Assembly: GCF_003073045.1 (NCBI RefSeq)
Contig: NC_037592.1
Location: 16,759,844 to 16,823,843 of the forward strand
Source of the DNA: Pomacea canaliculata
Lineage: Eukaryota; Mollusca; Gastropoda; Architaenioglossa; Ampullariidae
Length of the DNA stretch: 64,000 nt
Direction: 5' to 3'
In this document: positions 1 to 48,300 of the stretch, in pieces
How positions within the stretch are numbered: position 1 is the stretch's first letter
How the letters are laid out: each line of letters starts with the position of its first letter
Made by a program: the position numbers and the translations under genes
The notes under the pieces: generated by a model
Seen by the model: the letters and a program-made list of their open reading frames with translations, nothing else
What the model was told of the DNA's origin: nothing
The model's database searches: none

Positions 1-240
1 AAATACACTCCAGAAATACACTATATTTCTATTGATTTCTTGTGCAGAGTTTGCAGCCGCTCAGAACTTGCACAGGCTTGTGTATGCAGACCACATGTAT
101 GACACGAATGAACCATGGCTTTAATGTATAGCATTCAGTATGCCATTCCTGGTCTAGTAAATAGCACTAAATAGTTCTTTTCCATTTTCTGCCTACGTAA
201 AATGTCAATAAAACTTTTTAATTATTCTTCGTTTGTGCAG

Positions 241-331
241 ATTGTGTTTGAAGCACAGAGAGAAGGTTTTGCATCAGGCGACATCGCTATTGATGATATT
301 CTGATGAAAAATGGTGCCTGTGTTGATGCAG
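241..331 (+). CDS. MAM 1, last exon (partial domain)
   Basis: This 91-nt exon encodes the final strands of a MAM domain. It starts in phase 0 after TTTGTGCAG with [10 protein letters not shown], contains SGDIAIDDI and ends with the last MAM cysteine in NGAC. The donor is G|GTAAAT in phase 1. The rest of this domain and the N-terminus of the protein lie left of the window. The first 240 bases are intron. Confidence 0.85.
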
Positions 332-21300: not shown

Positions 21301-24300
21301 CATAAAGTGTAATGTTTATAAGCTTCTGCAAGAAAAGAAAATATACCCACTGATTTGGGATTCCAGTAGCATGAAACTTCGAAGAAGAAAAGCAATAAAA
21401 CTTCTAGAGACTGGGAAAACAGCATGGTTGAGTATTTTTTAAGTTTATAATTATATTCTTATATCTGATGGTTATATAACAGTACTAGAGGGGTTCAAGA
21501 AATGGAGCTACAAGGGAATTTAAGTCTTGTCTACAATGTTGATTAACATTTGTTATTTTTGCAGATCACATTTTCCTCTTTGCCAACACCTGGATTTGGC
21601 AGGTATGATGTGGCAATTGATAACATTGCATTCTCAGATTGCCAGAATGAAAAGATCTTCAATCATACAGGTAAGCTTCTTTCAACAGCTAAGTTTTAAC
21701 TTTTTTCTCCTATTGCCATATAATCTTTCTGTTTTGTAGGTGTGTACGTGTTTAGGTGTGCATGCCCATGTGTGCATGAGACTTTGTATAATTGCACAAT
21801 GAATTCCTGTAGCCAGACTGTTTGTTTTAAAAATACTTTCATTATTAATTTTTTTAAATGGCAGATGAGTAGGTTTGTGGTATTTCTTTGAACGTACCTA
21901 TCTTGCAGACAGGCTGATTGAGAATTATAAATGTGGCAATTGAATTCAGCTTGATCAGATTAGTTCTCTGGTCACATTGTTTGAAAAAAAAATTCTGATT
22001 TATCATAGTTTTCCTATGTAAATGACTTTAGATTTACTTAAATGTACCATTCCTTACAGAGTTTACATTTTTTCAGTTACTGCTATATTTCTTTATGATT
22101 TCAGAAGTGAGCATGGACTGTTCGTTTGATTTAGGACTGTGTGGCTATTCACAAGTTCAAACGGATAACTTTGACTGGTCACTGACAGACATAAGTACAC
22201 CAACAGAAGGAACTGGACCTGATCGTGATCACACATCAGGCACTGGCTGTTACATTTACATTGAGACATCTACACCTCAGAAACCTGGTGATGTAGCTGA
22301 TCTGACATCTCCACTCCAGGTAGAAACCTGGATTCTGCTCTGTTAGTTGTGTCTTAAATTAAAAACTGATGGTCAGTCTCACACAACACATAAACATTCA
22401 CACACACACAGAAAATCAATATGCATGGATGCAAACACATGCAATATGTATGTTTGCACCATCCTCCCTCCCTGCCTTTCATACCCCTCTACCCTTACTG
22501 GACACAGATACCATCAGAAAAGGAAGACTCAGGGAAGGTAAGTATTGTGTACATTAGCATACTGGACTGTTGACTTGTGTCTGTGAGTGTGGATTGGAAG
22601 ATAGGTCTCTATCAGGTCTTTGAGAAAGCTGTTTTGTACTGTTTTGAGCCTTGAGTCATTGGTTCAAACCCAGTTACCTCAAGATATACTGAAACTTAGT
22701 AAACAACATTTAAAGCAGACACCTGTTAATAAACTTTTCATGGGCAGGCACCAACAAGTCCTGAAGGGAAGTGTTTAAAGTTTTGGTATCACATGTTTGG
22801 TGCACATGTGGAAACTCTGAATGTCTTCATACAGCAAGACTCAAACCGCACACTAATTTGGACTCGGTCAAACACACAAGGCAACATTTGGCGTCAAGCA
22901 TTGCGTACCATCGTCAGTTATCAGTCATACAAGGTTAAGTATGTGAAGTGTAATATGTCTGAGTGCTATGTTTTCTCTCATAGGATGTTTGTGGGCAAAT
23001 GTAAGAGAGAATGTGCATGCATGTGTGTGTGTGTGCATGCTTATATAACTCATAAAGAGTGCAATGTGACAACTTCCATTGAGAATGGTGATTGTTTGAG
23101 CCTTACCACCAAAACAGGATTCCTGGTTGTTAGTTCGGATTTAATTTCTAGTATACACATTTTCTCTCTGAATTTGATGGCATTTAGGGATGGACATGGC
23201 ATGGGATTCTCTCCAGATACTCTAGATTTCTCACTCTTGTTTCTCTAGTCTTCTGCAATTCTACTAACTTGTTTGCAAGTAACTTTTCCCTTACTAAATA
23301 AAAACCAATCAGCTTTACTTTAACAAGTCAAAATAAAATGCTTTACAGGTTATCTTTGAGGGAGTTGTTGGGGTGAGCTTCCTGGGTGACATTGCAATTG
23401 ATGATGTCTCACTTGTGGATGAGCCTTGTCCTCCTTCATGTAAGAATAACTCTTCTAATTAAGACAAATATTTAGATCATATTTATACTTCCATGCCTGG
23501 GTCTATGTCTGAATGGATAAAAATGTGTGACAGCCACAATTAGATTTAGACTAAATATATATTAAAACAGCTTAATTTTGTTCTTCTAATTCCAAAGCAA
23601 ACAAAAAAAAGCACTTCAGGTGTATTACTGTCTACAGTGGAATGTGACTTTGAGGCAGACTTTTGTGACTACACCCAGAGTACAGATGATCAGTTTGACT
23701 GGATTCGTCATGCGAATAATCTCTCACAAGTTAACACAGGTCCATCCTGGGACCACACAGCACTCAACCGAGAGGGTCAGCACCTTTGAAACTAAAAGCA
23801 CAATAAGTTTCTCCTTTTTCAAGGGTTTTGACTTTATTGCTTTTAAATTGTGACAGTCAGTGATGTTATTAGCATCAAATGTAGCAACATCGATTGGTCT
23901 TATTTGTTTATTTAGATTTTATAAAGATTAATTGAGTAAACTATTTAGTTAGACAGATTCTTTCTCTGCAGATGTAATTTTTCATAAACTTTATATCTCA
24001 TACTGTATTTTAGTTTTAGTTTTGATCTTAGTTATTTTCAAAAGTAAATTTTTGTGATCACAATGAGGTTTGTTTGTTCTGTAGGTTATTACGCATACCT
24101 TACAACAGGACCTCCCCATAAGGCTGGAGACCGTGCTGTCATTGTAAGCCCTGTTCAGCAAAGATCTCTAATCAGCCAGTGCTTAACTTTCTGGTACCAG
24201 ATGTATGGTTTCCCATCTGTGGGCCAGCTCAATCTCTACATTATTTCAAATGGTACTCGATCAACATCACCGGTTTTTAGTGTGGCAGGTGACCATGGAA

Positions 24301-27300
24301 GCATCTGGATTCAGGCTGCCTACACTTTGCCACCACCAAAAGCCTCATGGCAGGCAAGAATGATATTTTCCATTCATACACTTTTGAATAGTTGTTGTCT
24401 TTTTTTTTTGGTCAGTTATATCTTTGATACTGATATTTTGAACTAAACATGCATGTGTGCATGATGCCTCTGTGTACAAATGCATACTAATGTATTTATC
24501 TCCTCCATTTGCTCCAGGCTATTGTCCACTATGACTCCCAGCTCTCTTTCTGTTCTTTTACTACATACAACTGCTGTGAAGTCTCTTATAATATTCATGT
24601 TGGTTGTTATTATTCTGTTGTCCTTTACAATGAGCTGTCTATATCAGGGCATTTATGAACAGCAGAAATAATGCCAGTCCTGCTTCCAATGTGAGCAGTT
24701 CCTTCTCCCTCTCTGTCTTTCTGTAAAGATACTTCTAATACAATGTTCTCACTGATGCCATAGAATTCTATAGCACTTGCAGGCTCATTAAAAATACTTT
24801 AAAGTCTGGATATTTAGCATCAAATGGGAAGACTTTAATCTTTGCTATAAGTACAGTTGTCTGTAACTCCTAGTACATTACTTAGCACTTATTGGTCACA
24901 AAACAATGTTGAGTATCTGATAATAACAAGTTGTCTTTCAAATATTTAAATACTTCAACAGCTCATCCCTGATGATATTTTTGAGCAGCTAACCTTGGGT
25001 ATTTATAAGGCTAACAAGAATTTTTTGTCATATTGGAGTGTCTTGAAGCTAGGAATTCGACCCTATTGTAGTCTAGATGCCATTGACTCAGTCTGAGGAC
25101 AGTGATCTATGACCTTGATGGAAATGCATAGTTGCTAGAAGCAAGGGGCTTGGGAATGGATAAGTTAGAGAGCAGACAGGTTTTGGGACAGTGGACTTTA
25201 AGAGTGTAAATAAAACACTTTGTATACATAAAAGTTTGAGCTGTGTCTTAAGAAAATATTACAGCTGGCCATGCTCACATCACCGTCTTCAAGACAAGAG
25301 TTATACTGGCTGTCTTCCACTAAGATATTGTGAATGGGGGGAAATCACAAATCAAGAGCCCTGCTAAAACATCAAACCCTCCCTAAAGGATAACATACTC
25401 CATCTAGTCTTGCTGCCTTATTAACTTGTCTATAAGGATATTTTATTTGAAAGTGCCAGATGTTCCTAAATTTTTTTCTTAATAGCATGTTGACTGCAAA
25501 CTTATCTAATTATTGTTTTATTATTGGTGTCATTATCATCATAATTATTGCAATTGGATCATAAGACAAATGATAAAGGATGCTCTTAGGCTTAACTTCT
25601 CAGTGAAATGCAGACAGGCATGTCATTATCAATGATTTCAGATCATGATTGAGGCCGTAGTTGGGCAAAGCGATGCTGGAGACATTGCTATTGATGATAT
25701 AAAGATACAAGAAGGTGACTGTCCTCCTCCTGGTTCCTGTAACTTTGAAGTTGACACCTGTAGCTACTACAATATTGAAGGCTATGGCATGGATGACTTT
25801 GACTGGCTTCGCTCTGCAGGTGGGACTGTTGTAGCTGGCACTGGTCCTGCAGTTGACCACACATCTGATTCTGATGCAGGTAAATTAAAGAAATCTTCTC
25901 CGAGTCTGTGCACTTGTTCTGTCCAGATAGTAGAGGGGGGAATATATCTCTTGAAATCATTCATCTAATATGTGTTACAAAATGCAATATTCATATTTTT
26001 AAAAAAAACATTATTTTATTGTGACAAGAATTACTTAACAAAGAGCATTGTAAACTGCTATCTTTTGCAGCGATATTTTTACATTCTATGCTTTGTTGCT
26101 TTGCTTGATTGTTTTAGCCTGTGCTTCATCTTAAACCAAAGACATGACAATCTAGAAGCTGTTGATGAGTTACCTCCCTTGTTAGAAGAAAAAAAAGTTG
26201 AAATATGTATACTAACACAAACACAGTCAGTGGCATATACTAACAATCAGTGGCATATTAACGCAGTGACATATACTAACACAGTGACATTCCCTATTGT
26301 GACATATATTAACAGTCAGTGAGATATTCTAAGGATTTAGTAACCATCTGTAAAGGACCTGGCCATCATTTTTTTTCTACAGCTGTTTCTACATCAGTCA
26401 CATTATGTTACCTTACATCAGTTTGCATTAATTTTCACTGCTAGAAGTCATTTTATTTTATTGAGGTTTAATAACAGCTGTGTCTTCAGTATCTTGGCAG
26501 CTTGGAATTGTCAGTGTTTCCAAGACCATCTGGCACATAATTTGCTTGAGCTTTTCAAGACCTTTAGATGAAACCAGGAAATTGCTTTGTTGTTATCTTT
26601 GAAAGGAAAGTGATTCCACCTGTTATTGATTTCTTTTTGTGGAGGGATGTATGATGAATAGGGAAATATTCTAATGAATTTGTTTTCATTTCTTTTATGC
26701 ATATATTTGGGGGTTCCTCCCAGGTTTTTACATGTACATGCAAGCGGATACCCACAGCATGGGACAAAGGGCATCATTTTCCAGTTCTCCTATTCCTTGT
26801 AGCCCTCAGATGTGCATCAGCTTTTGGTATCACATGTATGGTCAGGGTATGAAAGAACTTGTCATCATTTTTGAGTGTCAGCTTTCTGTCAATTTAGTGT
26901 GTCTAGGGGCTAGATCCCCATTAATCTTAAGAGTTTGTGTTTATCATGTCCTTTTGACCAAATATTTAATTTAGTATCCTATTACATAGTGTATTTTCAG
27001 ATAAAAATACTTCCGACTTGGCTCTTTTGGCTTCTATATTATATGAAGTTTTTAAATATCAGTCTTCTATTGCATTTAATTTTAAAAACTAAATTGGAGA
27101 GAGATGCAATATAACTATTGTACAAGAGTTGTTATGGGACAGAAAAGAAGTGACTAGACAGCATAAAATATCAATGATTAACATCATGCTGTTTTTAGTG
27201 TTATTGGTGTGGAAAAATATAAATCTTTATAGTGCATTCCATTTAGACAAGGTCTGTAAAGATAATGTTATCATGTCAACCAGGCTGCCATAGTATTGTG

Positions 27301-30300
27301 AAAGATCATATTCTTTACCCAGAAAAGTAGTTTTATCTGGATATGGTTGCTATAGAATAACATGCATTTTTCTGAAAAAACAGATGAAGGCACCTTGGTA
27401 GTGTACCAGAGTGGAGAACAACTTGTGACTCTTATGACAATGACAGGTGACCAAGGTGATTTCTGGCACTACTGGGAGAACACAACAAGCTGTGACTCCT
27501 CTTTTGAGGTACAGTGACTGGTCAACATAGGTGGACTGGGGTCAGAGAAGGTGTGCTGATCTAGGGCTATGACATCCATTTTAATGAGGCATCTTTTTTT
27601 TATGCTAAATGGTTTTCAGTGATTTTAGCATTACTAATCTGGAGTCTAGCTTCGAAAGTTTTGCTTATATCTGTTAGAGCACACTTGCGTATTTTGTGTG
27701 ATGCTGCAAATTAAAATAAAGAAAGATGATAATGATATCTTGAATGATTCAAGAAAATGTTTTGTATGCTTGAAACCTAAAGCAAATGGATTAAAACTGT
27801 GAAATATATATATTTTGACAATGAAGATAATGTACATTATGCAGAGGACCTATTACAAAATATAGCTTAAATAGACCACACCTGTTTCTTACATCTAGGT
27901 GATTGTTTCTGTGTCAGGAGTTTTTGCATTGACTACCATCAAATTTCAATTGACTTTTCAGCTGATATTTGATGGCACAGTAGGAAATGGCTCTCGAGGA
28001 GATATTGCTATTGATGATGTGTCTGTGAAACCAGGAAACTGCACTGGTCCACCTGCTACTGACAATCCTGGAATTTCACAAGTTACATATGGTGGGTACT
28101 TTTAAAAATTGAAAAAAAGTCATTTGTAATGTGAGAGTCAAGCATACAAGTAGTTTTGCATTTTTATAAAGCAAGAAAAGGGTTTTCAAAAAAAGCTGCT
28201 TGTCTCAAAACATTTTAACATATCTGCTATCTGGCGTGCAGCACCAACGAAGTATGACTGCAACTTTGATCAGGCTAGCATCTGCAACTGGATCCAGGAC
28301 ATTACAGACAATTTTAACTGGACCCTGCATCATGGTGCAACGGCATCACTCCAAACAGGACCTAGCTATGATCATACACAGCAGAATATAAATGGTAGAG
28401 ATTTACTGTCTAGAAAGAATTGGGAATCTAAGATCTTTCAGCAATCTTTCTATAAAACCATCATACAGATAACCTCTTTAAAGAAGGAAATGCTTTGATT
28501 GCATCAGTTTGGTGCCACATTTATGTCGCAAAATTGATGCATTAAAGGCACTTACTAAATATTACTTAATATTTACAAGAATATTTAGACAAATGGACTA
28601 TCTGTATCATGATAAATAACAAATCCAGTTAGACTACCTTTGTTTTTTTTTAGCAGGATTATAGCTTCTCCTAGGAATTCATTCTACTGTGCATTGAAAT
28701 TAGTGATATAGATATTTAGAATGCGAACTGTATTACATACCTTGTTCTGTGCTGCCAAGTGTGAGGAAATGCTATGGAGATTTCTTAAAATATAAAATAA
28801 ATATTCATCTTAGAAGTGCAAACACTGTATTTTATTCAAGCTTGGGAAGAAAGACTGGCGTACTAGAAAAATATGTGTATACTTTTGCCTATGCAAATCA
28901 TTATTTTGAAAATTAAATTGTGTGCAGGTTACTATATATACACTGAAGCATCCCACCAGCCAGCCAATGCTACGGCACGTATTATGAGTCAAACTGTGAC
29001 CATAAATAACACTGGTTTATGTGTTCACTTCTGGTTCCACATGTATGGCAGCAGCATCGGATTGCTTAATGTCTATGCTCAGCAAGGTAGAGTTCTTTTT
29101 TTTCCATCAAGTTTTTCAAGTTTTTGTTCACTTCTGCTTCTTATTGGTCCTCTGCCATCATCTTTCCACCATTGACTTCAGTTCTGTTTGTAAATCCTTG
29201 AATGCTCTCCTCTTGTTTGGTTGTCACTGTGATGGTGATTTTGTGTGTGTGTGTGTGAAGGATTAATGGCAAAGACACCACTGAGTCAAAAGGTGTGTAC
29301 TGTCTGATGCCTTGCTAAAGATACTTGCCTGAACAAACTCATTGGATTATTTACAGTATTGAGACCATGCTTTCAAGATACTTTTAGATGTAATTGGGGA
29401 GGTGAGGGAAGGGTGTAGCAATATTTTAATAAAATTTGGAAACATAAGAAGGTTATGTTGAATATTATTTTAAAATACAGCATTCATGAGGATTAAGATT
29501 TACATTTATACTAGATACATAGTTTTTCCTCATATAAGAAATGATTCATTTGAAATGAACAAAAGCTCACAAGAACCCCCAGGCATGGAAGTGACTGGAG
29601 GAAGAAAGGAAGGAGGAAGAAGCAGAAAAGATACAGAACTGAATAGAAGGAGAACGGCAAACACACCCTTTATTAATGAGAGTGACACCACACAAGCAAT
29701 TAATATGCTATAGTCTATGTAGCTTTTACCCTAAAGAGGGAAAATAATTTGTTGAGAGAGAGAATCAGTCACAGATCATAGTTATGAAAGACATCTTTAT
29801 TTAAACCAACTTAAATGCCTACAATGTCATTTCAAAGGACTGGGGTAAGAGATTCCAAATAGTGGTAACTCAAAGAAGTACTACAGCAGATGCAGATGTG
29901 TTGGAACATATATACATGTATATGAGCACATGTATCTGCATGCCTGCTTAGAGGTCCATCATTGCTTCTTCTATAAAGTTGTTTTACAGTCCTTATCTTT
30001 ACTTGAGATCTCTTTCAATGCAGGAAAAAATCTGGGAAACCCTCTGTGGACAAGGTCAGGTGAACAAGGAGACAAGTGGATCAGTGCAACTCTATTTCTT
30101 ACACCCCAAGGTCTCTCTCCTCTCCAGAATCAGACAACTATTGTGCAGGTATGAAGCTTGATGTCTTTTTTTGCATCTTTTACAAATATAAGAAAAGAAT
30201 GTCCACTGTTATTTATTACCACAAACTATAACAACATGCAGATCTTTGCAGGGAGGACTAGACTGATGATGAGTAACATTGACACCATCAACCAGAGATG

Positions 30301-33300
30301 TCAAATTTAGATACCTGAAATAATTAAGTTGCCTTATAAAACAGCTATGATGATGATGATGATTTAAAACAAACCAAATTCTGTTTTCTCTGTATAATTT
30401 AAAGGTAGAGTACATCATTTAGGTGCTTTGGCTGTGGGGGCATCGTGATAATCATGCAACCAAATCTTGCCATTTCTCTGGCATTCTCTTGGATTTGCCT
30501 TATACATTTCATTTGAAAAGTGTATTGCCTGAGCATTATGCTTTACAATCGAAGGCTATCTTTGTGTGTGCATATGTGTGTGTGTCTATATGCATGATTT
30601 AGATTGTCTTTGAGGGTGTACTTACTAGAGGCTACCAAAGTGACATAGCACTGGATGACATCTCCTTCAACAATGGCAATTGCCCTACATCAGGTAAGAC
30701 TTCCTTCTTTGAAGCTAAAAATGTTAATTATTTTGTCTCTCTGCATTCCTTCCTTGGAACATTACAGAACAAAATATACATCAATTTTCTAAAGTTTAGG
30801 TTTTCTATTCAATAGTATTTTTCATGACAAGAAGATGTTCAGCTGTGTTTTGCACATTTCTTTCTTGCCGTTCTGTGAATAAATCGTGACATATTGTGTG
30901 GGATCTAGATATTTGATCTACTATTCACATAGTAAGCATATTTGAACTAATGAGCATATCTTTTTTTATATTTCAGTCAGTTGTAGTTTTGATTCTGATG
31001 ATATCTGTGGTTACCTGCAAGAAACAATTGCTAATTATAGCTGGACCAGGCAAAGAGGTCACACACCAAGCTCAGGAACAGGTCCAGCCGCAGACCATAC
31101 CTATGGCACAATGAGTGGTAAGTCAGACTGGTATGGTATGTGTGACTTGTCCTCAGTCTTGTGGAATATCTCATATCATGTTTTCTTCACACACACACAC
31201 ACACATGCACATGTCTGTATTGGCGAGTGTTTAAAAACAGTTAAAGGTCATTTTTTGGAGGTACCTTTTTTTTAATAATGACTGGTAAAATGAAGTGGAA
31301 GACACTATTTTCTTATTTAAATACCATCCCAATTCTCCTACCATTCTGTTCTCGAGATAAAAATGCCTAAAAACTTCACCATGAGCACAAAAATATCAAC
31401 AATATTTTGTGAGGATTCTACATCGATATGTTTATGTTGTGAAGGTCACAGCCAATGGAAAAAAAGCTAACTAGGATGATATGTTAACTAGGCACATCTG
31501 TGGACAAATGTGACATCACGAATTTGACTTCTTTCAGGGCATAGTGATGTTTGAAGTAGTCAAAAGTGGAAGAGGGACGCTCACCCAGATTTTGGGAAAA
31601 GTTGATTCTTATTCTGAGTGTTCCCCAGTCATTAGAAGAAAATGTTTAATGTTTGTACATTTTCAAAATAAGCTTTTATCTGTTGCTTTCTCTAAGGGTA
31701 CTACATGTATGCAGAGGCTTCCAAAGGAAATCCTGGCGAGAATGCAAACCTGTTGAGTCCTGTGCAGCCTGCCACAACAGGCAAGTGCCTTCACTTTTAC
31801 TACCACATGAGTGGCACAGGCATGGGAACACTCATGGTGTCCATCAGGGCACGGGCTGTAAGCACCGTCATCTGGCGCCGCTTTTCAGACCAGGGTGATG
31901 ACTGGCATACAGCACAAGTCTCCATCAATTCCAACTTTCAGTACCAGGTAAAACTTGAAACATCAAGAATAAGCGATGCAAATGTATATCAGCATAAAAT
32001 CATATCATTTATGTATATACTTTGAACATTCAAAATTAGATCCTCTTGTTAAGTATAAAAGATGATCAGCTAAATCATTCAGGGTATTATCATTTTATGA
32101 TCTTTAAGGTCAGTGACATTAAAATCACTGTTAAGCATAAGGGCTATGCAGGTGGGTCACTGTTAGAAAGCGCTGTTAAAAGCTTGGCATACAGGCTTAC
32201 TTTTTTTTCTTTAACCTCAGACACTATAGTTACAAATGTCATGACATTAACTTATCTTCGCAGGTGGAGTTTCAAGCTGTCCGGGGAAGCACTTATCAAA
32301 GTGATATAGCTATAGATGATGTTGAGCTGCAGGATGGCCTCTGCTCACTGCCAGCTTCATGTGACTTTGAACAGGGACAATGTGCCTGGAGCAATGATGA
32401 CGCTGATGATGACTTTGACTGGATTCGCTCTCAGGGCTCCACCATCACTGCAAATACTGGCCCTACAAGTGACCACACTCTGCAGAATATTAAAGGTCTG
32501 TGTGGATGTAGGTGTGTGAGTGCATACACATACATGTGCATGTGTGTGTGAGAGACAGAAAGAGACTGAAGTTACGGTAAACAGGTAAATTACTTTATGG
32601 ATCTTTCATGCAGACACTGCTGCCAGCAAAAAAGTAGACATCCCACTGAGTTGCTTGCTTGATTTTGCAGGTCACTACATGTACATAGAGGCATCTCAAC
32701 CTAGGAAACCAGGAGACAAAGCTCGACTGCATTCAGAGATTTTGAATAACAGTTCACATCCCCAGTGCCTCACCTTCTGGTACAATATGCATGGAGCTGG
32801 CATGGGTACCCTCTCTGTGTATAAGAACCTAGTCTCTAGAACGTCAGGACTTATTCAGCTCTGGACACTGAGTGGAGACCAGGGAGCTCAGTGGCAGAAA
32901 GCCTCAGTCCCTGTTCACGACAACAAAAAAGAGTTTATGCTGGTCTTTGAGGGAGTGGTTGGCAGTTCCTACCTTAGTGATATGGCCATTGATGATGTCA
33001 GTCTGACAGATGGAGACTGCTCTTCTAGTAGTCAGCCATCAAAATTTACCTGCAGAAATCAGCAGACTGTGACTAGTGATAAAGTGTGCAACTTTGTGAA
33101 GGACTGTTCTGATGGCAGCGATGAGGTTCAGTGTGGAAACTGTACCTTTGAGGTAGATCTGTGTGGGTATAATGACATTAGCAAGGGTTCTTTTAGGTAC
33201 CTGCGCACCAGTAATTCTACATCAACAAAGAGTCTTCCAATTCCATTTGACCATTCTTACAACAAAAACAGTGGATATCTGCTGTATGTGGACACAAGCC

Positions 33301-36300
33301 GAGGAACTTTCAACTCTTTGGCCACATTAGCAAGTCCTGTACTTCATCAGTCTTCTCCAGCCTGCCAGCTGTATTTCTACTACTTCATCATTGGTAGTGC
33401 TGGTGCTGGTCAGCTTCAGGTCTCCGTCATGACTGGAGACACCAAAACCATTGTCTGGCAGCTCCGTACCAGCTCTGTTACTAACCAGTGGCTACTTGCT
33501 GTGGCAGACATAGGTGCTTTAATGGAGACTTCCAGATTTACATAGAAGCCACGAGATTTTGTCATATGGCAGCCTTGTCATAGATTGATGTTCAGCTCCT
33601 TAACTGTGGATACCCACCCCACAAGCATATTGCCCTCCTGGTTCCTTTCAGTGTCAGATGGGATCGTGTATTAACAAGGATCAAGTGTGTGATGGGGAGA
33701 AGGACTGTGGTCAGCAGGATAATAGTGATGAAGCCACCTGTACGGCTGCCCACATGTGTGACTTTGAGCACTCACTCTGTGACTGGGCTCAGGATGTCAC
33801 AGATGATTTTGACTGGGTAATCATGAGTGGTCAAACCCCAACTCCAGACACAGGTCCCTTCCGTGACCACACTACAGGTCTTGTGACAGGACATTATGTT
33901 TACACAGAGTCTTCTGCACCACGTCGCCCTGGTCAAAAGGCAAGACTACTTAGTCCAGTAATCCAGCCTACTACAGCCAGTGACAACTGCTATCTTGTTG
34001 TCTACTACAAAACATGAATGGTAGAACTATGGGTGACTTTAATGTCTACATGCAAACATCATCCAATGGTTACCTAGCACTTTGATTCATCGCTCGGGTG
34101 ACCTTGGTCCTGTGTGTGGGTGCGAGATTCACGACTTCTTGTTTCTGCTCAACCATTTTCTCTTATAGTTGAAGGTGTTATTGGCCCTAGCTATTATAGT
34201 GACTTAGCTGTGGATGACATTGTGTTGTCAGCAGGCTGTAGATTTTCACAAAATACTCTTCCTACAGCTGGTTACACTGTAACTGACACAACCCCCAAAG
34301 TTTGTGCAACGAGCCAGTACCAGTGTGCAAATGGCGACTGCATAGACCAGTCTCGCTACTGTGACTTCTCCAAGGATTGTTCAGATGGCTCTGATGAGTT
34401 GACATGTGGCGCCTGCAATTTTGAGGCAGGACTGTGTGGCTACAAAGATTTAAGTGTTGGACGCTACAACTGGACACTGAGCTACCCAGCTTTGATGGGG
34501 TGGTGGCCCAGCTTCAGATCACACTCTGGGAAATAGACAGGGTCACTATGCTTATGTGGAGGGTGACAGAGGAGTGTTTCAACAAGTGGCCAGACTTCAA
34601 AGCCCTCCATTGCCAGCACTGTCTACTCAATGCACTGTTTCTTTCTTCTTTTACATATCAGATCATCAGTTAGGTCTCTTTCAGTTTGGGTTCAATATCA
34701 ATGATTCATACAGAAATGTATTCACTATTGCTGGACGCTATGGGTCAGGCTGGGAACCAATGAATATATACATAGGTAGTTTAGGTGGTCTACCAGCAGG
34801 CTCTCATCTTGAGTTCCGTGTGACGCCTGGCCAAGGAGCTCTTGTCAACAACTCTGCTGACGTGGCAATAGATGATATTACCTTTACTTACTGCACTCCA
34901 AGACAGCTACCTCCCGCTGTCAGCTGCACTTTTGAGACAGGATTCTGCACCTGGAACCAGAGCACCAGTGACCAGATGGACTGGTTAAGGCACCAGGGCT
35001 CAACACCAACAGCGCACACTGGCCCATCTGATGATCAAACAACAGGTGTAGGTTACTATGTATACATTGAAACATCACCACCAACAAGACCAGGTGATTC
35101 AGCTGTCCTGCAGACTCCATGGCTGCTGCCTACAGATTCTGCAGGTTACTGTCTGACTTTCTGGTATTACATGTTTGGATCGACCATGGGTAATCTCACA
35201 CTTAACTTAATGACACCACAGGGCATTCAGACATTCTGGTCTAAACATGGACCTCAGGGTGATCAGTGGAGACAAGCCCAGCGAACTGTTGTTTCCACTA
35301 CAGAATACTCCCTCTTCTTCCAGGCTTTTTCAGGAGGTTACCTTGGAGACATTGCAATAGATGACATCTTAGCATTGAGGGGACCTTGTCCTCCTACAGC
35401 ATCTTGTGACTTTGAAGAGGACACATGTTCGTGGACAAAGAGCAGCATGGGTAATATCAACTGGACCCTGGGCACCAATGGTTCTACAGCCATGGGAACA
35501 GGACCAAGACTAGATCACACATTTGGTTCAGACTCAGGCCACTTTTTGTTTCTACATGGAAGCAAATCAGGTGACCAGGCATTCCTTGCCAGCACATTAC
35601 TTAATAGTGTTTCATCATTTTGCCTACAGTTCTCGTATTACATGCATGGACAACATACAGGATCACTGAATATATCTGTCACTATAAATGGAACTTCTCC
35701 GCCTCAGTCTATGTGGAGCCTGCAGGGAGACCAAGGAGACCAGTGGAAGCATGCTGCAGTCAGTCTCCCCTATCTGAGCAATCAACAGTTCAGGATTCTA
35801 TTGCAAGGCATCAGTACTGGTGGTCAACAAGAAAACATTGCTGTTGATGACATCAGCTTCAACACTGGAGATTGTCCATTAGGTAGCTGCAATTTTGAAG
35901 CTGATATGTGTTCTTACTCTAATGTACTTACTGGTGATGACTTTGACTGGCAGAGAGGCCGTGGGGAATCATCAAGTCGCACATTGGGTCCATCTACTGA
36001 CCACACACGCCACACATCATCTGGGCACTACATGTACCTGGAAACTTCTGGTGCCAACCTCACAGCAGGGCAGAAGGCGTGGCTAGTGAGTGAGACTCTA
36101 CCATCTCCTAGAAATCCAACAGGAGGATGTCTTTTCTTCTATTACCACATGTATGGGGTGGGAATAGGCACCCTGAATGTCTACACATGGTCTGCATCCA
36201 CTCATAACTTGACTCTCATCTGGTCTGTAAGCGGCAACCAGGGCAATGTGTGGAAGTATGGCTTAGCTCCTATACTGACTAACAACTCATATGAGATCAC

Positions 36301-39300
36301 CTTTGAAGGTGTTTATGGAGGCAACACTACAGGAGATATTGCCATTGATGACATATCAGTATCATCTTATCAATGTTTTGGCATGACCAAGCCTACAACT
36401 CCATCAAGTGTTTTAATATCACCAGTGACATACCCACCTACCTCCATAGACTGTGACTTTGAGTCAGACATCTGTAACTGGCAGCAAGATACTAGTGACC
36501 AGTTCAACTGGGAGGTTCAAGCTGGCAGAACACTGACTGGGACAGGTCCCACTGCTGACCACACTTACAGTACTCTTCGAGGGCACTTTGCCTACATGAA
36601 CTCATCACATGACTCAGCAAACAGCTCTGCTCGTCTGCTCAGTCCAGCACTGACCATTGGACCCCAGGGTGTCTGCTTTAAGTTCTGGTACTACATGTAT
36701 GGAAGCTCTATTAACAGGTTAACTCTTCTTGCTCAGCGCAATGGAAAAAGTCAAGCAGTAAGCATTTAATTTTATCTTGATGAATATTTTATTTCTAAAA
36801 TCTTATGGTAAGTTTTTTTACTCTAGTCATTTATATATTTTAATTTTATTTTGTTGTTATCAAAGGGGCTTTTTATTATAACTGTATATTGGTATCATTA
36901 ACAATATTAGTCGCACATTAAATGGGAGAAATTCTGATGTTTCTGTTCCTTCTCAGGCCCTGCTGTTTGGAATTCTCTGCTAATTTGTCTTTGAGGTGAT
37001 CCGGTGGCATAACGGTTTGTGCCAGTCACTAATACAGTGAGGTTTGGCTGTCGTGGATTCTTATCTTAGGCATGCTGTTCTTTCTCTGCATGTGGCATCT
37101 GTTTACAGGCTGACTTCCGTGTCATGATATAGTTCCTGGCTCAAACAAACACCAATATCCCCTTCTTTCTCATTGAACAATGTCTACATTTGAAACCTTT
37201 AAATCTGATCTCAAACCTGACTCTTTAAGAAATATCTTGTACAATCAAGGTACTTTTCTTCTCACTTCTTACTTTTTCATACCTTTTACTTCGTTCATAT
37301 TTGTATCGTGGTTTTTATTCATTTATTTTTCTTGTTTAGTTTGCTGTTGGTTCATTTGTAGTCTTTTGTGTGTGATGTATTGAATTCACATCCACCTGGG
37401 AAATTTGCTTCAGAAATTTGGTTATTATTGCTTTTTTTCACAGACAGTAACACAATTGCTTAATGTATAGATACACAAAAAAAGAAACTTACAGAAGTTA
37501 TACAAAAAGTACATTCATTTCTCAACAACCAAGCAATCATTTGAAACATTATATCAAAATTATGAAATTAATAAGAGAAAGGTTAAAGTTACATGCAGAC
37601 CACAGTCTAATAGCTGCTGTATATTTAATTACTCATACATGCTGATGTCATAAAGGGAAAATTGAAAAAAACAAACATAGCTAGGGACCAGGTGCCACTT
37701 TTACCACGAGTGTTACTTAATGGTGCTTGAAGGTCTTTGGTCAAGTGATGTGTTGCATGTGTCCTAAGGGAAAGAAGTACACTTTAAACTGCCTTAAATA
37801 ACACATTATTATATTTATTATACCTCTAATATTACACTTATCATTTCTTGAAAAATGTCTTTGAATGATACTGATAAGATGTTGGGTAAAAATAGAACTT
37901 TTATGTGAATGGTCATAAGCTCAGTTTTGATGAGGCCAAAACAAGTCAAAGTTTCTTCATTCTTACATAAATTTTTAAACATGTGATTCATGAACGTATA
38001 ATGTGTTTAATTCATAGCTTGCATTTACTGTTAACAGGATTTACATTTATATTTACATTCAAACATGATATTATGCAATAATATCCCTCACATTTGCAGA
38101 GAAATAAGCACATGACAAGCACACCTGAAATAGTGCAAGCAGTTAGAATATTATTTGTAGTGTTTCTTCCTTCAAACAATTGTTTTAGTTATGGACACGG
38201 TCAGGGACCCAAGGACCACAATGGAGGTACGGTCAGGTACATATACGCACTAATGGATCTACAGTCTTCATCCTGGAGGGTCTGCCAGGACTTGGTGCAC
38301 ATGGGGATATTGCACTTGATGACATTTCTGTGAATGTTGACCGCTGCCCTGATGAAGTGATCTGTGACTTTGAGAATGATAAGTGTGGATACACTCAGGC
38401 ATATGATGACAACTTTGACTGGGACTTGAATCTTGCTTCAGCTTTTGACACGATTTCTGGCCCCTCTGCAGACCACACTTTTGGTACATCTCTAGGACAT
38501 TACATGTACACCATCTCCACACTACCACCTGGCAGTTTTGCACGAATGGACAGTCCCTTGCTGGGGGCCAACCTCAGGCTCCTGTTTGCAGTTTTGGTAC
38601 AACATGCATGGGTACAATATTCAGGGAGCAATAGTAGGGACAGTTAATGTGTACACTCGTAGTGATGGTGCTCTTAGTAACACCATTTTCACGCGGACAG
38701 GAGAGCAGGGTGCTGAGTGGGAAATTGCCCAAGCCACTCTCCGCAGTACTGTCCCATTCAAAGTGACATTTGAAGGTGTAGTTGGAAATGGATTCTTCAA
38801 ATCTATCTGTATAGATGACATCACTGTTCAGCCTGGTGCTTGTCCTGGTGAAGGTAACTGTGACTTTGAGGAGAACCTTTGTACATGGAAGAACACTGCT
38901 GTGGGAGATAACTTCGACTGGCTGCAAGGGCAGAACCAACCACTGGCAGGTTTTTCAGGCACTGTTGTTGACCACACCCTGAACACAGTCTATGGTGTTT
39001 ATATGTACACTGACTCATCTCCACCTCGTCAGACTGGTGACAAAGCATGGCTTATTTCACCATCATTTGACAACTCTACAGCTCGCTGTCTGTCACTGTG
39101 GTACATGATGGCTACAAGAGGTACTATCAACATCAAAGTCATTGCTTTGACCAATGGTACTGTCATAAATGTTGTGGGTATAAAGCAGGTTAGTGTGCCA
39201 TCTCTGTTGCTATGATTTAATTTGATTAGGTTAGTAAATACCTTATCTCTATTTACATGATATAACTTTTTATCATTAGGGAACATTGCAAGGCTATACC

Positions 39301-42300
39301 TATTACTTAATTATGTCAATGACATGACTTGAGAGACATACACAATATCACTGTTCATGATATGTAACTCTTCTTCAGGAGTTTAGAGGACATGGCATGC
39401 CTTTTGTTGCTCTGTGTGTGTGAGTGCGCATTCTTATGCACATGTTTGTATATGTTACACATGTGTGTGTGATCTGTGTGTCTGTGAGTCTTTATATCTG
39501 TGTTTGTGTAGCACTAGAAATTTATTGTTTTCTGGAAATTTATGTCAGTCTGCACCCTGTAAGAGTGCACTGAACACCAGTGTGTGAGGAAATACACTAA
39601 TTTGATCTTTATTATTATTATCATTATTATCATATTCTTTCGCTGATGAAGACACATTGGTGTAGCCTAGAAAGCAAGAGCCATTATTCCATTTTTAAAC
39701 AATTCAAGTTCATTTGAAAATGTTTCTCTTTCTTCTTGTTTTAATGAGTACATATATATATACACATGTGTCTGTGTGCTGTTATATGTACATCTTTTGA
39801 TCATCATTTTCTCCAAATCATTACATGATGCTGTTTTCGTGTTTCAGGAGAGTACCAACTGGCAGTTGTCAAGAGTGACCATAGCTAACATAAAGTCATC
39901 TTACCGCATTGTAATCGAACACATTGTTCAGACTCCAGGTCTGAGTGATGTTGCTATTGATGACATCTCATTACAGACAGGAAATTGCAGTGTATTGCCC
40001 ACAATGTCTCCACAGCAGTGTGCCTTTACATGTCCTGGATCGACCACATGCATTGCTCGCAACAAAGTCTGTGATTTTGTTTCTGACTGTCCCCATGGAG
40101 AGGAGGAAACAGCTTGCGGCTACAACTGCAACTTTGACAATCAGACTTGCCACTGGGTCAGCAACAGTGAAGGAACCTATGTCTGGACAAAATATCGTGG
40201 TGCTACTCCTGATTCCAACACAGGGACCAGACAGAGATCACACCACTAACTCTGGCCTGGGCTACTACTTGTACACAGATGCCTCTAATGGAACTCGTTA
40301 TGATCAGGCTCTTCTTCAGAGCCCACTGTTCCAGAGCTCTTCACCCACTTGCCAGCTAAGCCTCTGGTACCACATGTTTGGCAGTGGAGTTGGAGATCTT
40401 TTTGTCATGAAGGAGGAAGGTGTCACAAAAACTTACTTGTGGAAAACTAGTGGTGACCATGGCAACCGATGGTATCAAGCAGTTATTCCTATTGAGCGGA
40501 TGGCCTCACCTTTCACTCTGACTATTGGATCTACAAGATCCTTTAATGTTCTTGGTGACATTGCCATTGATGACATTTTTTTCCAGCACTGTTCCTTCCC
40601 AGACCCAGCTACCAGCTGCACAGCACACAGCACCTTTAAGTGCAGGAGCCAGGCTTGTGTTCCAACACAGAATGTATGTGACTTTGTTGATGACTGTGGA
40701 GATGGCACTGATGAACTTGACTACACCTGTGATGATTATATTCGCTGTGACTTTGAGACAAGCATGTGTGGATGGAATCAAGATACTACAGACAACATGG
40801 ACTGGAGTCGACTTGCAGGACCCACCCCTACATCAGGAACTGGCCCTTTGCATGACCACACCCTGGGTACCAGTTCAGGACATTACATCTATGTAAAAAG
40901 CTCTGACCCTCACAAAGAAGGAGCCACAGCCAGGATTATTAGTCGTGCCTTTCAATCTTCTGCATCAGCTCCATACTGTCAATTGAAGTTTTTCTACTAC
41001 ATGTATGGCCAAACCATAGGCAGTTTGTCAGTTTACACTCGAAATTCTTTCAATGGTCCGCTTGTTAAAAGGTTCAGTAGATCTGGTGAGATAGGCAATT
41101 ATTGGGTGAGCTCTGTGGTACCTATCTATGACACAAAGCCTTTCCAAATCATAATAGAAGCAACCTTGCACAATGCTTCTTTGGGAGACATAGGAATAGA
41201 TGACACCATCTTCACTTCAGCATGCAAACTTCTGACAACAGACTTTCCCATAGGCACACCAGGTTCTTCAGTCACAACACCTTCACCTTGTGGTGACCCC
41301 AGTGTTTACTATCAATGTTTAAATGCTTCAAGATGTATATCCAGAACTCTGGTGTGTGATTTTGTTACCCAATGTACTGATGGTTCAGATGAAGCCAACT
41401 GTGGGACATGTGATTTCCAGCAAGGTATGTGCGGTTGGCAGGACATCAGTGTTGATAAGTATGTGTGGGAAAGACATAATGGCTCCACTGCTTCTGCCAT
41501 TTCAGGCCCAAACGCAGACCACACCACAGGGAAGACCACTGGAAACTATATATATGTAGACTCAACTGCAACAGATGACTATGGGAAGGCAGTGATGATA
41601 TCACCCATGTATGGTGCCATTGGTGCTGGTTGTGAAATCAGTTTCTGGGTGCACAAGAAGACTTTTGCATACCTGAGTCTTTACCTAGTTCCTCCAGGAC
41701 AGAGTCCATATGATGGCCAGCGTATTCAAGTGTGGCAAGTTTCAGCATCTCTGGGCAGTAACTGGACCAGTGCTACAGCTGGTTTAGGGGCACATCCCCC
41801 TGGTTACAGACTTGTTTTTGAAGGTATTTTTGGCACAACAGATGGTGACATTGCTCTTGATGACATTACATTCAGTCCCAGCTGTGCTCTTGGCTCTAAC
41901 ATGAGTAAATGCCCATCAAACCAGTATCACTGTGATAACCACATCTGTGTAGACAAGACCAGGGTTTGTGATTTCGCTAATGACTGTGGAGACAACTCAG
42001 ATGAAAAAAACTGCTCCAGCTATGTTGAGCGTTGCAACTTTGAGGTGGATTTGTGCAATTGGATTCAGGATCAGACAGATGTATTTGACTGGACCAGAAA
42101 ATCAGGGTCTACCACCACAGCAGGCACTGGCCCTGACAGAGATCACACATTAGGCACTGAGACTGGAACATACTTGTACTTGGAGAGTTCTAACAGAAAA
42201 GCTAATGACACTGCCAGGTTAAAAAGCCTAATTTTCCAGCCAGCATCAGAAGGTCAGTGCTACATGCGATTTTTTCATCACATGCTTGGGAAGGACATCA

Positions 42301-45300
42301 ATGCTCTTAACATCTACATAGAAGGAGCAGAACAAGGCTCGAGAGCACTGCTGCTATCTATTCATGATCAGCAGGGTGATGAGTGGCGCAAGACCATCCT
42401 CAGCATTGTTAGTGCATATAACTTTAGGATTGTGATTGAAGGGACAACAGGGGCCAGTGACCTTGGTGATATAGGCTTGGATGATATCTCTTTCACACCA
42501 GGCTGTCGTCTGGCAGTAGGGGCAAGTCTACCACCGGTGCTCCCAACAAGCACCAATCATCAGTGTCCTACAGGAACATTTTTTTGTGGACTAAACACAC
42601 CATGTCGCTTGGATGTTTTACCTCTGTAACTTTTACTCTGACTGTGTAGAGGGCATAGACGAAGCTCAGTGTCCATCAGTTTGTGATTTTGAAAACCATG
42701 ATTATCATTTTGTCCCTTTGTGTGGATGGACCAATCAAGCAGAAGGCAATGCAGCAGACTGGATTTTAAGGACTCCAAGTTCCTCAGGTTATCCTGCAGT
42801 GGATCACAATCCAGGGACATCTTCTGGACATTTTGTTGGAGTTATATTCCCTGTCACCCAGTCTGTGCATGCTAATTCATGGCTGGTGTCTCAGATTTAT
42901 AGAAATTCAGGTCCTTCCTGCAGGTTTAATTTCTGGTACATGCACAGTGGCAGTACCATCCTTAATCTTTATCTATTTGTCAGGTCTGGTGGTGCAGACC
43001 AGCAAATCTGGGCACTGCCTGCCACTAGGCCTACACCAATGTTTGGCACAATGCTACTGCCTTGATACCCTCTTGTGTATCAGAATTTCAGCTTGTGTTT
43101 GAGCTGCAGGGACTGAGCAATGGCTATGCTGCTCTTGATGACTATTCCTTCCAGAACTGCGGATTACCTTCCATGAGTTCTTCTCCTCCTGTCTGCAATG
43201 AATTAAGTGAATTTCAGTGTGGCAATGGGCAGTGCATACCCAAAGGCCAAGTATGCGACATGCAGTCAGACTGCTGTGACAATTCTGATGAGTCTCCTTA
43301 CCAGTGCTATGCATATAAAAAAATTGATTTTGAGCAGGGCTTGGATGGTTTTGTGCAGCTGACTGATGACAATTTTAATTGGACACGTCATCGGGGTCCA
43401 ACAGAGACATCAGGGACAGGTCCCTCACAAGATCACACAACTGATTCTACATCTGGATACTATTTATATATTGAGTCTTCCCCTCCACAGCAGATGAATG
43501 ACAAAGCTCGTCTAGCTTACTATCTACCAGCACCCACTCCTGGCTTTCATTGTAGCATGCGTTTGTGGTACCACATGTATGGAGCACACTCAGGGAGCCT
43601 TAACATCTACAGTCAAGATGCAGCAGGTAACACTATCCCTTACCAAACCCTGGCCTTAGACCATGGCAACCAATGGCTGAAATCAGAAGTCACTTTTGAT
43701 GCACAGCTTCCTTTCTCAGCAATCATTGAAGGAGTCGTAGGGGTGGGACAACTGAGTGACATAGCAATCGATGATGTCTCTTTCACACCAGGATGTGGCA
43801 TAAGATCACCTACTACTCCTCCTCCAACGCCATCTGTAACAGTGACACAACCCTCCACTCCTTCAACTTTCCCACCATGCCAGGCTAGTCAGTTCCAGTG
43901 TGCATCCACTGGCATTTGCATCCCAGGAGAAAACCAGTGTGACTTTAACACAGACTGTCCTGATAACAGCGATGAAATGTCATGTTTCACCATCGGTACC
44001 TGTACTTTCTCAGCCTCCTTTTGTGGATGGGCAAAATACATTCCTGATTTAATGGACTGGCAGCTTGTGAGGCCTAGTGATATTCACAATGTCATAACTG
44101 CACCACAGAAAGATGGCGATGGGTCAAGCAATGGCTATTTTCTGTACTTACAGGACACTCAAAATGGTAACACCAATGGCCAGACAGACAGACTTTTGAG
44201 TCCAGCGTACAGCAGATGTTCTGGAGAGTGCAAGATTCAGTTCTCATACTTCATACAGGGATCTAACCCAGGAGCTCTAGCTCTCTCAATCTTTTCATCT
44301 TCTGTGAACAACACTCTGTGGAAATCAGTCAGCACTACATCAGATCAGTGGGTCACAGAAACTGTTGGACTTGACCGGAGGAAAGATAAGTTCTCACTAC
44401 AATTTGATCATGTAGATGCACCTAACATGTCAGGAACTATTGCTATTGATAACATTAAGTTTTCTAACTGTGAGCTACCAGTTCCTGTTTTAAAGTGCCC
44501 ATCAGACTTATTCAACTGCTCAAACCATGCTTGTATTGATAGCAGTCTCATTTGTGATCACATGGATGACTGTGGTGACAATTCTGATGAAAATCCCAGT
44601 CTGTGTACTCAGTACAAAATGTATGACTTTGATGAAAACCTACAGAGCCTTGGTGAGTTCACACAGGGCCTGACCACTATAGATGATCAGCAAGACTGGT
44701 CACTGTACAAAGGAAGCAGTACACCGGGCCTTCCCACCATGGATCACACAACAGGCACCCACTATGGACACTACATCTATCTCTGGGCCTCCAACGGGAC
44801 CAAGTTTGGGGACACAGCATGGCTTGTGTCTACACCCTTCCAAACCTCTACCTCAGACAAACCTTGTTCACTGCACTTCTTTTACTATATTTATGGCAAC
44901 AATGGACATCAGATCAACATCATGTATCGTACACATCGCAATGGACCAGCAGACAAAGTGGAATGGTCAGTGAGTGGCAGCTATGGAGCCATATGGCAGA
45001 GAGCATCCACACAGATTAGTGTCTCCCAGCCATTCCAGGTCATCATCGAAGGTCAGCTAAGGGGCAGCAGCTATGGTGTAGCCATTGATGACCTTTCCCT
45101 CAGCCCTGGCTGCTCTGTCAGTGACAGTCCATTGCCAGCACTACCAGTAACCCCACCCACCACACCTCCTCCAGCCTGTACAAGCAACCAGTACTTATGT
45201 ATCATCAACAGGATGTGCATCAGCAACAGGAGTCGATGTGATGGTGTCAGTGATTGCCCTGACTCCTCAGATGAACTTGGCTGTGGTGAGACAGTAATTT

Positions 45301-48300
45301 CAAGAACTAGTACAAAATGTTACATTGTCATAGTATTTTCATCTTTGAAAATAAGATATTAAACATTTTCACAGCCAAGATATCTAGTATTTTATTAGTT
45401 ATGAAGTATTAAGATGTTTTTAGATAGAACTACAAGACTTTTACCATATGTATCCACAGTTTTAATACCTTTGAAAGACATAAATTTAGTACCTTTGCTG
45501 AGTTTATGTTCCAAACATGTTTGGTGCTTGTCTTGGGTATGTTGCAGCCTGCACCTCAAGCAAATTCAGGTGCAGCAATGGTCTTTGCATTAACTCTAAC
45601 AAGAAATGTGATGCAGCCAATGACTGTAGGGATGAGAATGCATCAGATGAAAATGATCCAGACTGTGTCTTGTACTTGCGATTCAATTTTGAGAGTTCCA
45701 GCTTTGGGGAATTTACGCAAGGCCACACAGGCATAGAAGATAAGACTGACTGGCAGATTGGGCAAGCAAGCAGCATGTCATTCTCAGGACTTCCACATAC
45801 AGACCACACCACTGGGAAATCCTCTGGACATTTCTTGTTTTCAAGGTCTCACAACCCTGGAGACACAGCCTGGCTCATTTCTCGGCCATTTGGAGCACAG
45901 CAGGACAGAACTGCCAGATGAAGCTTTTCTTCTATATCTTTGGCAGCAGTGTGCATCATCTCAGCATCCTGTACCGCACACACAATGCTGGGCCTCCTGA
46001 TGGGCAGATCTGGACAAGTGCTGGTCAGCAGGGCCCCAACTGGCTGGAAGCCTCATCCCTCATTCAGTATTGACACACCTTTCCAGATCATTATTGAAGC
46101 CTACATGGCTATGGCCAATCAAGTCATTGCTATTGATGATGTGTCTTTTACACCTGATTGCCAACACAGTGTCTCCAACCTGCCATCATTGCCAGTTTCC
46201 ACAACAGCTAAGCCAACAGTGCCTCCAACAACAAAAATATGCAGTATAATTGAGCTAAAATGTGACAATGGACAACAGTGTTATGCCAAGACTCGGCTGT
46301 GTGATAACAAGAAGGACTGTGCTGATGGAAGTGACGAAGCAAGTTCAAAGTGCTGTGAGTCTTATATTGTCATATGTCTGTTGCATGAACTTTGAGCAAA
46401 TATGTAAAAGAAGCTGCAGGAATAGACATAAAATGAAAGGTAGTTAAACCTTTTGATTTAACTCTACAATTAATTTACTCCTCTTAATTTTAAAACAGAA
46501 GTAGTTGGAAATTAAAATAATATTAGATTTTTGATATCTCTGATGGAACATGTTCAGTTTTTAATTATCTGGACATGGCGTTTTGTATTAGACTGTATAA
46601 GAGTATTTTGAATAATGATTGAATGCTTTACATCAAATAAACTTTGCTTTCAGCTTGTAACAGTAGACTTTGCAGGAATGGTGGTCAATGCTCAGTCAAA
46701 GCTGGTATAGGACCAACATGCAAGTGAGTGCTTAAGATCCCTCATAGCATTCAATAAACAGGTCTTTTACAGCTAAAACACATGCACAACAAGTGAAATT
46801 GATCTTCCCAGAATTTGATCTTATAAATTGCCCATTTGTTCTCTTTACATTTTGATCTGCCAGTGAATTATATCTGACAGTGAATTATATGAATAAAGCA
46901 GCTTGATTTCTGTCATTTTCTATAATATCGATCTCTTCTAGCTGCACTAACAACTATTCTGGCCTTTACTGCAACAATCCACCTGCTACATCAGGCAGAC
47001 ACGGTGGCAGTAGCACAAGTGAGTTTATCTCTTTGTCTTTAACTTTTTGAATGCAAAGGAAATACAATCTTCAAGGTTTCTAATGTTGCTTGTTTTTCCA
47101 GTGCTCTTTATGGAAAATATGATTTTAAATGGTTGGTTATACATGTTTATTAAAGAAGACTTTTGAGAGAATAGTATTTTCAGATAAAAAATATGACATC
47201 CCAAACATATTATTACATTGTAATCACGCAGTTGGACATTTCTTAGTTTCCTTCTAATTGATTATGAATAAGTCATCATTGGAACATCCTCTGGAAGAAA
47301 ACACAGATCAAAGCTTGAAAATCTACGGTACACTACAAGACGTCTTTCTGATTAGTTTAAAGAACAGTATGTATTTAGTATAAATGCAGATGATTTTCAA
47401 AGGTAGCTGAAAATTTGTTACATCTGTTAAACTGAATTAAAATGGAGAAACAGAGTCATTTTGATCACAAATAACTAATTAGTTATGAAGAGTCATAAAA
47501 TATCCAGTTTACAACCAATATTAAATCATAGAGGAGTTTATTTATGATATAATCCTCACTAAAGCAGGAAAAAAAGAATTCTTAGAGATTCCTATATTGT
47601 TCATAGTGTAAATCGCTTCCATGTGCAGCAGCTGCTTGTTTGTTGGTTGTTTTTTATGTGTGTGTTAGGAGGGGAGAACACACTGGGCCCTGCGTATGGC
47701 CTATGGTAGTCATTTAGTCATTAATACAATAATTCATCAGTGTTCAGGGTGCTTATGAGGAGTTCAGTAGTGTAGCAGACGATGCGATATGTTTTTATCC
47801 ACCAACAATGGCTATTATAAGTAATAATTTTACTTCAATAAGCAGATGATTTACTATTGCCAAGAGCATAAAATCAGAATGAGATAATTGCTGGATCATT
47901 GTGGCTGAGGATATCTGCCACATATTAAATATCTTTTACAGCTTTTGTTTACTTTTGTCTTTGAGACAGTGTGACAATTTTATTATTAATGAAAGTAATA
48001 GGATTTATGGAGATTCCTCAGATTTAAGCAGCAACTTCTTGTTTGCATTTCCTACAGAGAACTGGGCTATTCCTGTGGGTGTCTCTCTGGGACTAGCTGC
48101 TGTTGGAGCCATTACTGGCTCTGTCATATTCTTTTGGCGGAGAAATAGAAGGCAAATAAAATTTCACCAAAATTTGATACTGACAGCATATTCTATATTT
48201 TCAAAACAGAGACCAGTAACATTAAATATTTCTTGAGTATGTTTCTTATTTCATGACCACAATATCAGTGTCCAGTAACTAAGCAAGTTTACAAAGTGAA

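Follow-up and report, generated by a model that had tools for sequence, protein, structure and literature searches.

This work describes a 64,000-nucleotide stretch of the Pomacea canaliculata genome, referred to here as the window (chromosome C3:16759844-16823843), which carries on its forward strand a long gene that is MALRD-like by its domains. The gene encodes tandem MAM domains with LDLa domains interspersed. In its first half the gene is split by many introns, while a second region, referred to here as the block (32671..46354), lies in four exons, in whose open reading frames (ORFs) Pfam MAM and Ldl_recept_a scored above cutoff. The intron-poor state of the block is old, being common to three Pomacea copies of the gene and to orthologous ORFs of other animals. 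In addition, the interiors of the large block exons have been homogenized between tandem copies; the old divergence persists at the ends of exons, in introns, and in the small exons upstream. We consider it likely that this giant MAM/LDLa receptor-like gene contains an old intron-poor block that now evolves differently for want of introns.

The window gene was modeled by profile alignment, allowing for introns and frameshifts; MAM units are numbered with M and LDLa units with L, and the four block exons are termed B1, B2, C, and T. The intron-rich half (97..32670) has no frame breaks and comprises the end of M01, 15 whole MAMs, the start of M18, 3 LDLa units, and 52 introns at recurring positions. 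Fourteen of these introns fall at MAM position 132 in phase 0, 12 at position 45 in phase 1 (and one each at 44 and 42), 14 between domains, and 3 at position 88 in phase 1, the others being single. Introns of the position 45 type occur in 14 of the 16 upstream units (M02 to M18) and those at position 132 in 13 of the 16, and intron positions in two further copies of the gene (copies 1 and 1b, see below) are mostly those of the upstream part of the window copy. The block begins with B1 (32671..36757; 4,087 bp), which holds the end of M18, L05, M19, L06, M20, L07, M22-M25, and the start of M26 and shows 8 frame-breaking insertions or deletions (indels) relative to another copy, copy 5. After an intron at 36758..38188 (phase 0, MAM position 106), B2 (38189..39188; 1,000 bp; 1 frame-breaking indel) contains the end of M26, M27, and the start of M28. 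A second intron (39189..39847; phase 0, MAM position 110) precedes exon C (39848..45285; 5,438 bp; 3 frame-breaking indels), with the end of M28 followed by L08-L16 and M29-M37. Both of these introns are also present in copies 1 and 5. A third intron, placed by the profile model after L16, between two LDLa units (45286..45547; phase 1), leads to exon T (45548..46354; 807 bp; 2 frame-breaking indels), which encodes L17, M38, and L18. The next intron begins at 46355, and the 3' end of the gene (46654..48236) is introned again; it encodes an EGF-like stretch and a transmembrane helix, both recognized by eye, and a tail.

A preliminary description of this stretch, made from the letters alone, had proposed four intron-poor exons at 32671 to 46354, upstream MAMs each split into three or four exons with conserved phases, and introned EGF, transmembrane, and tail exons at the end. 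Profile alignment reproduced the limits of the block exactly and bore out the other two points. The proposed content of 19 MAM and 14 LDLa units was right for LDLa (L05-L18); the MAMs amount to 18 complete domains and the last ∼115 positions of M18. An apparent intron at 33514-33625 in the first gene model was discarded, as four single-base indels lie there instead.

Close matches to the M32-M34 region were found at six places on C3 between 16.24 and 16.80 Mb, that of the window being the last one found, and Pomacea canaliculata proteins of 86 to 94% identity lie on the same chromosome record as the window's ORF. The cluster comprises at least six long tandem copies, with two shortened copies between them. 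Three of the long copies (the window, copy 1, and copy 5) were read over the entire block, and copies 2 to 4 over part of exon C. The exons and introns of the block in copies 1 and 5 are those of the window, copy 5 being without frame breaks and copy 1 having them. Exon C is open over the 4.5 kb examined in copies 3, 4, and 5, with frames of 1,838, 1,870, and 1,851 amino acids, respectively; for copy 3, a frame of 1,865 amino acids is also listed, and a frame change could lie beyond the stretch read.

For other animals, 19 ORFs picked from protein searches (a selection from all those existing) were mapped by MAM order, and a placement was counted only if it scored at least 100 bits over the next-best offset. 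Nine ORFs, from seven contigs if same-sized contigs are one, were placed on the block (P0012, P0275, P0260, P0197, P0198, P0194, P0199, P0026, and P0028), and two were placed on an upstream super-unit described below. The remaining eight (P0007, P0267, P0119, P0124, P0121, P0010, P0023, and P0137) were ambiguous, with a second-best offset within 100 bits, and were not used as proof. P0260 and P0275, from an 88.8-kb contig, together span M18 to M26 as far as the intron at 36758; P0260 runs into nonhomologous residues just before MAM position 45, and P0275 starts at a methionine just after it. P0012 likewise stops at the intron at 36758. These three ORFs show 43 to 67% identity per unit, and over M22-M25 they are 56 to 57% identical to Pomacea, with Gigantopelta at 46% and Dreissena at 47%. 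P0197 and P0198, from contigs of 437 and 379 kb, begin at the end of M20 and continue through M32, with no intron at 36758 or 39189, and share 38 to 43% identity over M22-M25 with all sequences but each other. M33-M37 are covered by P0026 and P0028, whose contigs match those two in size, and P0194 and P0199 cover M27-M37, stopping after L16, the site of the window intron at 45286.

According to the preliminary description, it was to be checked whether the three introns remaining in the block are old or new, and the answer differs from intron to intron. That at 45286 appears to be old, matching as it does the ends of the two distant ORFs P0194 and P0199. The intron at 36758 coincides with the ends of the three gastropod-like ORFs, and two distant ORFs lack it; it measures 186 bp in copy 5 and about 2.26 kb in copy 1, and between copies only 36 bp of its sequence can be aligned. 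The intron at 39189 is found in the Pomacea copies only, being absent from P0194, P0197, P0198, and P0199, and was probably gained. In the model of copy 1, the first block intron was split by an 11-bp exon, which was rejected as false; the donor was read from the sequence at 16233353.

Within the gene, L02-M18 and L05-M28 are two tandem super-units (window 11430-39990), each with 9 MAM and 3 LDLa units in the same order, with homology between corresponding positions (diagonal score of 938 bits versus a maximum of 897 in 20,000 permutations). The first super-unit has 31 introns and the matching second one has 2, several adjacent introns being exactly absent from the second relative to the first. 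FastTree trees built for three unit pairs largely part the two super-units: For M13/M23, the two types stand apart (support of 0.905 for the first and 0.91 for the second excluding Dreissena, which adjoins the second); for M12/M22, the second type is supported at 0.876; and for M11/M20, P0092, P0121, and P0007 are unresolved. The two ORFs placed on the upstream super-unit are uninterrupted there, where Pomacea has many introns: P0092 (38-kb contig) over M08-M14 and P0129 over M09-M14, from MAM position 44 to MAM position 135. Two canonical intron positions flank the run of P0129, an ORF that all three trees place with Elysia. Because the adjacent introns were lost precisely, we infer that the original loss proceeded by recombination with a partial complementary DNA (cDNA). 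The block introns would have been removed in one or a few steps in an early ancestor by a reverse-transcribed partial messenger RNA (mRNA), and other species may have undergone a similar loss again in their upstream super-unit, since two ORFs on this intron-rich part are uninterrupted there. For the original event, a founder already without introns is possible.

The preliminary description had read the block as an abrupt loss of introns, and loss rather than upstream gain remains the better reading; the event was not recent, given that copies 1 and 5 and the orthologous ORFs share the block. A recent swap of half the gene in the Pomacea lineage for a partial reverse-transcribed cDNA would leave many adjacent introns precisely missing in the 3' half, as is seen and as the reverse transcriptase model of intron loss predicts (PMC3629103). 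However, copies 1 and 5 share the block although upstream dS (synonymous divergence) between the window and copy 1 is near 1, the intron at 36758 marks the end of three gastropod-like ORFs, with the border between P0260 and P0275 near MAM position 45, and more distant ORFs span much of the remaining block uninterrupted; a recent replacement is close to refuted. That the ancestral gene was intron poor and its 5' half acquired introns is very improbable. The preliminary description had held that distant orthologues with the same block would make this state ancestral and the 5' introns gained. Uninterrupted ORFs for parts of the block, some gastropod-like and some more distant, were largely what was found, and other species do have an uninterrupted upstream super-unit (P0092 and P0129; P0121 is ambiguous), but the corollary of 5' gain is not followed because introns at MAM positions 45 and 132 recur in most upstream units and flank the P0129 run. 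Most upstream units share these positions and phases, both in the window copy and in copies 1 and 1b, and independent gains at the same site in unit after unit are unlikely. We regard as unlikely, but worth keeping in view, a birth without introns, in which the second super-unit and its sequel were inserted as an mRNA-derived copy of the first and then expanded. One introned and one nearly intron-free super-unit, homologous by position, would be expected from such an origin; uninterrupted runs in the first super-unit of other species (M08-M14 in P0092 and M09-M14 in P0129), with canonical positions at the borders, fit loss in place. Recent tandem growth of the block was also considered and dismissed, as self-comparison of the window DNA gave no recent repeats and a single 59-bp match.

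Between the window and copy 1, the large block exons differ less than the exons upstream. At the DNA level, exon matches in the upstream part of this pair are mostly at 70 to 86% identity and the last two small exons are at about 90%, while the block exons reach 92 to 93% over 4,162, 1,018, and 5,463 bp; apart from short margins, the introns fall outside these matches. Pooled dS for this pair is 1.28, 1.06, and 0.87 over window positions 1-10000, 10000-20000, and 20000-30800; it falls to 0.40 in the last three small upstream exons (30900-32670) and to 0.149, 0.150, and 0.184 in B1, B2, and C, with 0.45 in T. For the window and copy 5, dS is 0.207 (B1), 0.496 (B2), 0.264 (C), and 0.336 (T), and for copies 1 and 5, it is 0.218, 0.526, 0.252, and 0.313. 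Between the window and copy 1b, which lacks the block, dS is 0.967 over the upstream part compared. Thus, the statement in the preliminary description that the sequence of the block is equally diverged holds for units within the gene and fails for tandem gene copies.

This similarity depends on the distance to the exon end. In the block exons of the window and copy 1, the proportion of synonymous differences (pS) is 0.541 at 0 to 30 bp from the end, 0.287 at 30 to 60 bp, 0.190 at 60 to 100 bp, 0.195 at 100 to 170 bp, 0.159 at 170 to 300 bp, 0.139 at 300 to 500 bp, 0.137 at 500 to 1,000 bp, and 0.153 beyond 1,000 bp. In upstream exons, the first four bins give 0.574, 0.538, 0.511, and 0.473. 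Toward the interior, pS drops from 0.581 to about 0.2 between the window and copy 5 and from 0.487 to 0.14 to 0.22 between copies 1 and 5, more slowly, over 170 to 300 bp. In exon T, synonymous differences are low in mid-exon and high at both ends. Five introns in or next to the block, compared among the three copies, gave only two matches, of 36 and 38 bp. In an alignment of exon C across six copies (4,483 gap-free columns), the nearest copy to the window switches among copies 1, 2, 3, 4, and 5, and identical runs are longer than in 2,000 column shuffles for 14 of 15 copy pairs (global P below 0.05; 0.23 for copies 1 and 5). The hallmarks of gene conversion are therefore present, namely mosaic similarity with switching nearest neighbors and a similar stretch bounded by background-level divergence, and the sequences point to exon-confined gene conversion among the tandem copies. 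The template is most simply DNA, not spliced cDNA, because homogenization does not extend past the ends of exons and the two inner introns are still there, in diverged form; cDNA-templated conversion between copies is not supported, with pS rising at exon ends and introns kept and diverged. Columns 2500-3000 of the six-copy alignment of exon C (approximately window 42600-43100) contain patches in which some copies are only 73 to 80% identical, against 96 to 99% for all six copies in the rest of the exon; diversifying selection is a possible cause of these patches.

Several observations weigh against this account. The conversion data come from one assembly of one species, and the test of identical runs ignores regional constraint. 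Exon B2 is not homogenized between the window and copy 5 (dS of 0.496) or between copies 1 and 5 (0.526); the degree of homogenization is therefore not a matter of exon length alone. Among upstream exons, pS is predicted not by length (Spearman coefficient of −0.08) but by position (−0.43); since small exons adjoining the block are also lower (dS of 0.40), nearness to the block counts as well, and length as the sole predictor of homogenization was discarded as insufficient. That the ORFs from other animals are gastropod or outgroup, and genomic, is inferred, their genomic nature from contig sizes and from ORF ends that read into nonhomologous residues, with contigs of 2.8 to 10 kb being less certain.

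The frame breaks bear on two further explanations. Relative to copy 5, indels of a length not divisible by three number 14 in the window block and 11 in copy 1, with none common to both, and copy 2 has two frame changes in 4.5 kb of exon C. Such numbers would suit a window copy that is a decaying pseudogene with real frame breaks. Decay nevertheless seems unlikely to us. No nonsense codon occurs among the codons compared, 3,749 for the window and 3,750 for copy 1, the dN/dS ratio (nonsynonymous to synonymous divergence) between the two copies is 0.31 to 0.35 in B1, B2, and C, and the upstream half of the window copy, as modeled, has no break in 9,072 coding bases up to 33500 (the models of the upstream part of copy 1 and of copy 1b have one and three breaks, respectively, one of the three at the end of the piece). 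Moreover, the window breaks sit in stretches of above-average similarity to another copy, at a mean that 34 of 20,000 random placements attained, although clustering overstates this case, as seven of the 14 breaks lie within 600 bp. Copy 1 behaves in the opposite manner (16,041 of 20,000), and outside exon C the placement test used only two other copies. The breaks in the window block are more likely assembly errors than decay. That the exon-interior similarity is itself an artefact of assembly or short-read polishing has to be weighed because the assembly consists of PacBio data polished with Pilon on BWA-MEM alignments (PMC6129957), and the authors of PMC9779670 guarded against artificial homogenization from such polishing. 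It is highly improbable here: Short reads would hardly map across 20 to 25% divergence, the upstream level; misjoined long reads would bring introns along; and the homogenized patches vary from pair to pair.

Loss of introns may have created 1 to 5.4 kb of unbroken homology, a good substrate for interlocus gene conversion, and unbroken homology of 1 kb or more would let conversion start and spread; exons of 80 to 330 bp between diverged introns would be a poor substrate. We lean toward the view that intron density sets the evolutionary mode along this one gene, the 3' half forming a shared, exchangeable pool and the 5' half diverging gene by gene, with introns acting as partition walls against conversion and their loss turning the sequence over to concerted evolution. 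If so, patches of extracellular repeats are shuffled between long cluster copies in the 3' half, and paralogue trees built from the big exons would date conversions, not duplications. With both states in one gene and in several tandem copies (exons of 1 to 5.4 kb versus 0.1 to 0.3 kb), the effect can be measured against the distance to the exon end.

Other members of the cluster are shorter. Copy 1b (C3:16255000-16289400) has introned units to M12 and then passes directly to a tail exon that is 82.9% identical to window 45577-46368, without the block. The annotated protein P0144 is built in the same way, with units to M12 followed by an EGF-like stretch and helix (by eye), and derives from copy 1b or another short copy. 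The second shortened copy (C3:16740001-16750240) lies just 5' of the window's gene and ends near a diverged fragment resembling M33-M34. Annotated proteins give the frame-broken copies only in pieces; P0002, P0003, P0072, and P0073 cover the block of other copies piecewise only, and P0002 contains stretches that look out of frame.

In its domains, the window gene resembles MAM and LDL-receptor class A domain-containing proteins 1 and 2 (MALRD1/2-like), and the unit order is shared by Gigantopelta P0188, which aligns on M19-M31 (1562 versus 1239 bits), and Saccostrea P0189, on M25-M37 (1531 versus 1108 bits). It differs in that Pomacea has at least six long copies and two short ones arrayed in tandem, the named relatives being known here as proteins only. 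Literature searches, some with narrow terms, returned no title on intron loss in MAM/LDLa genes. As in reverse transcriptase-mediated intron loss of fission yeast, for which exact removal of adjacent introns with a 3' bias is predicted (PMC3629103), runs of adjacent introns are precisely absent in the 3' half of the window gene. Unlike that case, the second super-unit has ∼29 fewer introns than the first, the loss is old, a second region was hit in other species (the upstream runs of P0092 and P0129), and the 3'-most exons are introned although the block lies in the 3' half. That introns diverge faster and may impede conversion is already in print in a review on Caenorhabditis (PMC3966223), where tracts are said to include introns often, the introns there being short; in the window gene, tracts stop at exon ends, and both states stand side by side in one gene. 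Gibbon opsin genes present the opposite picture, with conversion mostly inside introns and selected against in exons (PMC3213168). The major ampullate silk cluster of Argiope (PMC9779670) is like the window in its tandem arrangement, intergenic conversion, and exon similarity despite highly divergent introns. There, repeated introns are hypothesized to aid coding homogenization, whereas in the window gene, it is the scarcity of introns that goes with homogenization between genes.

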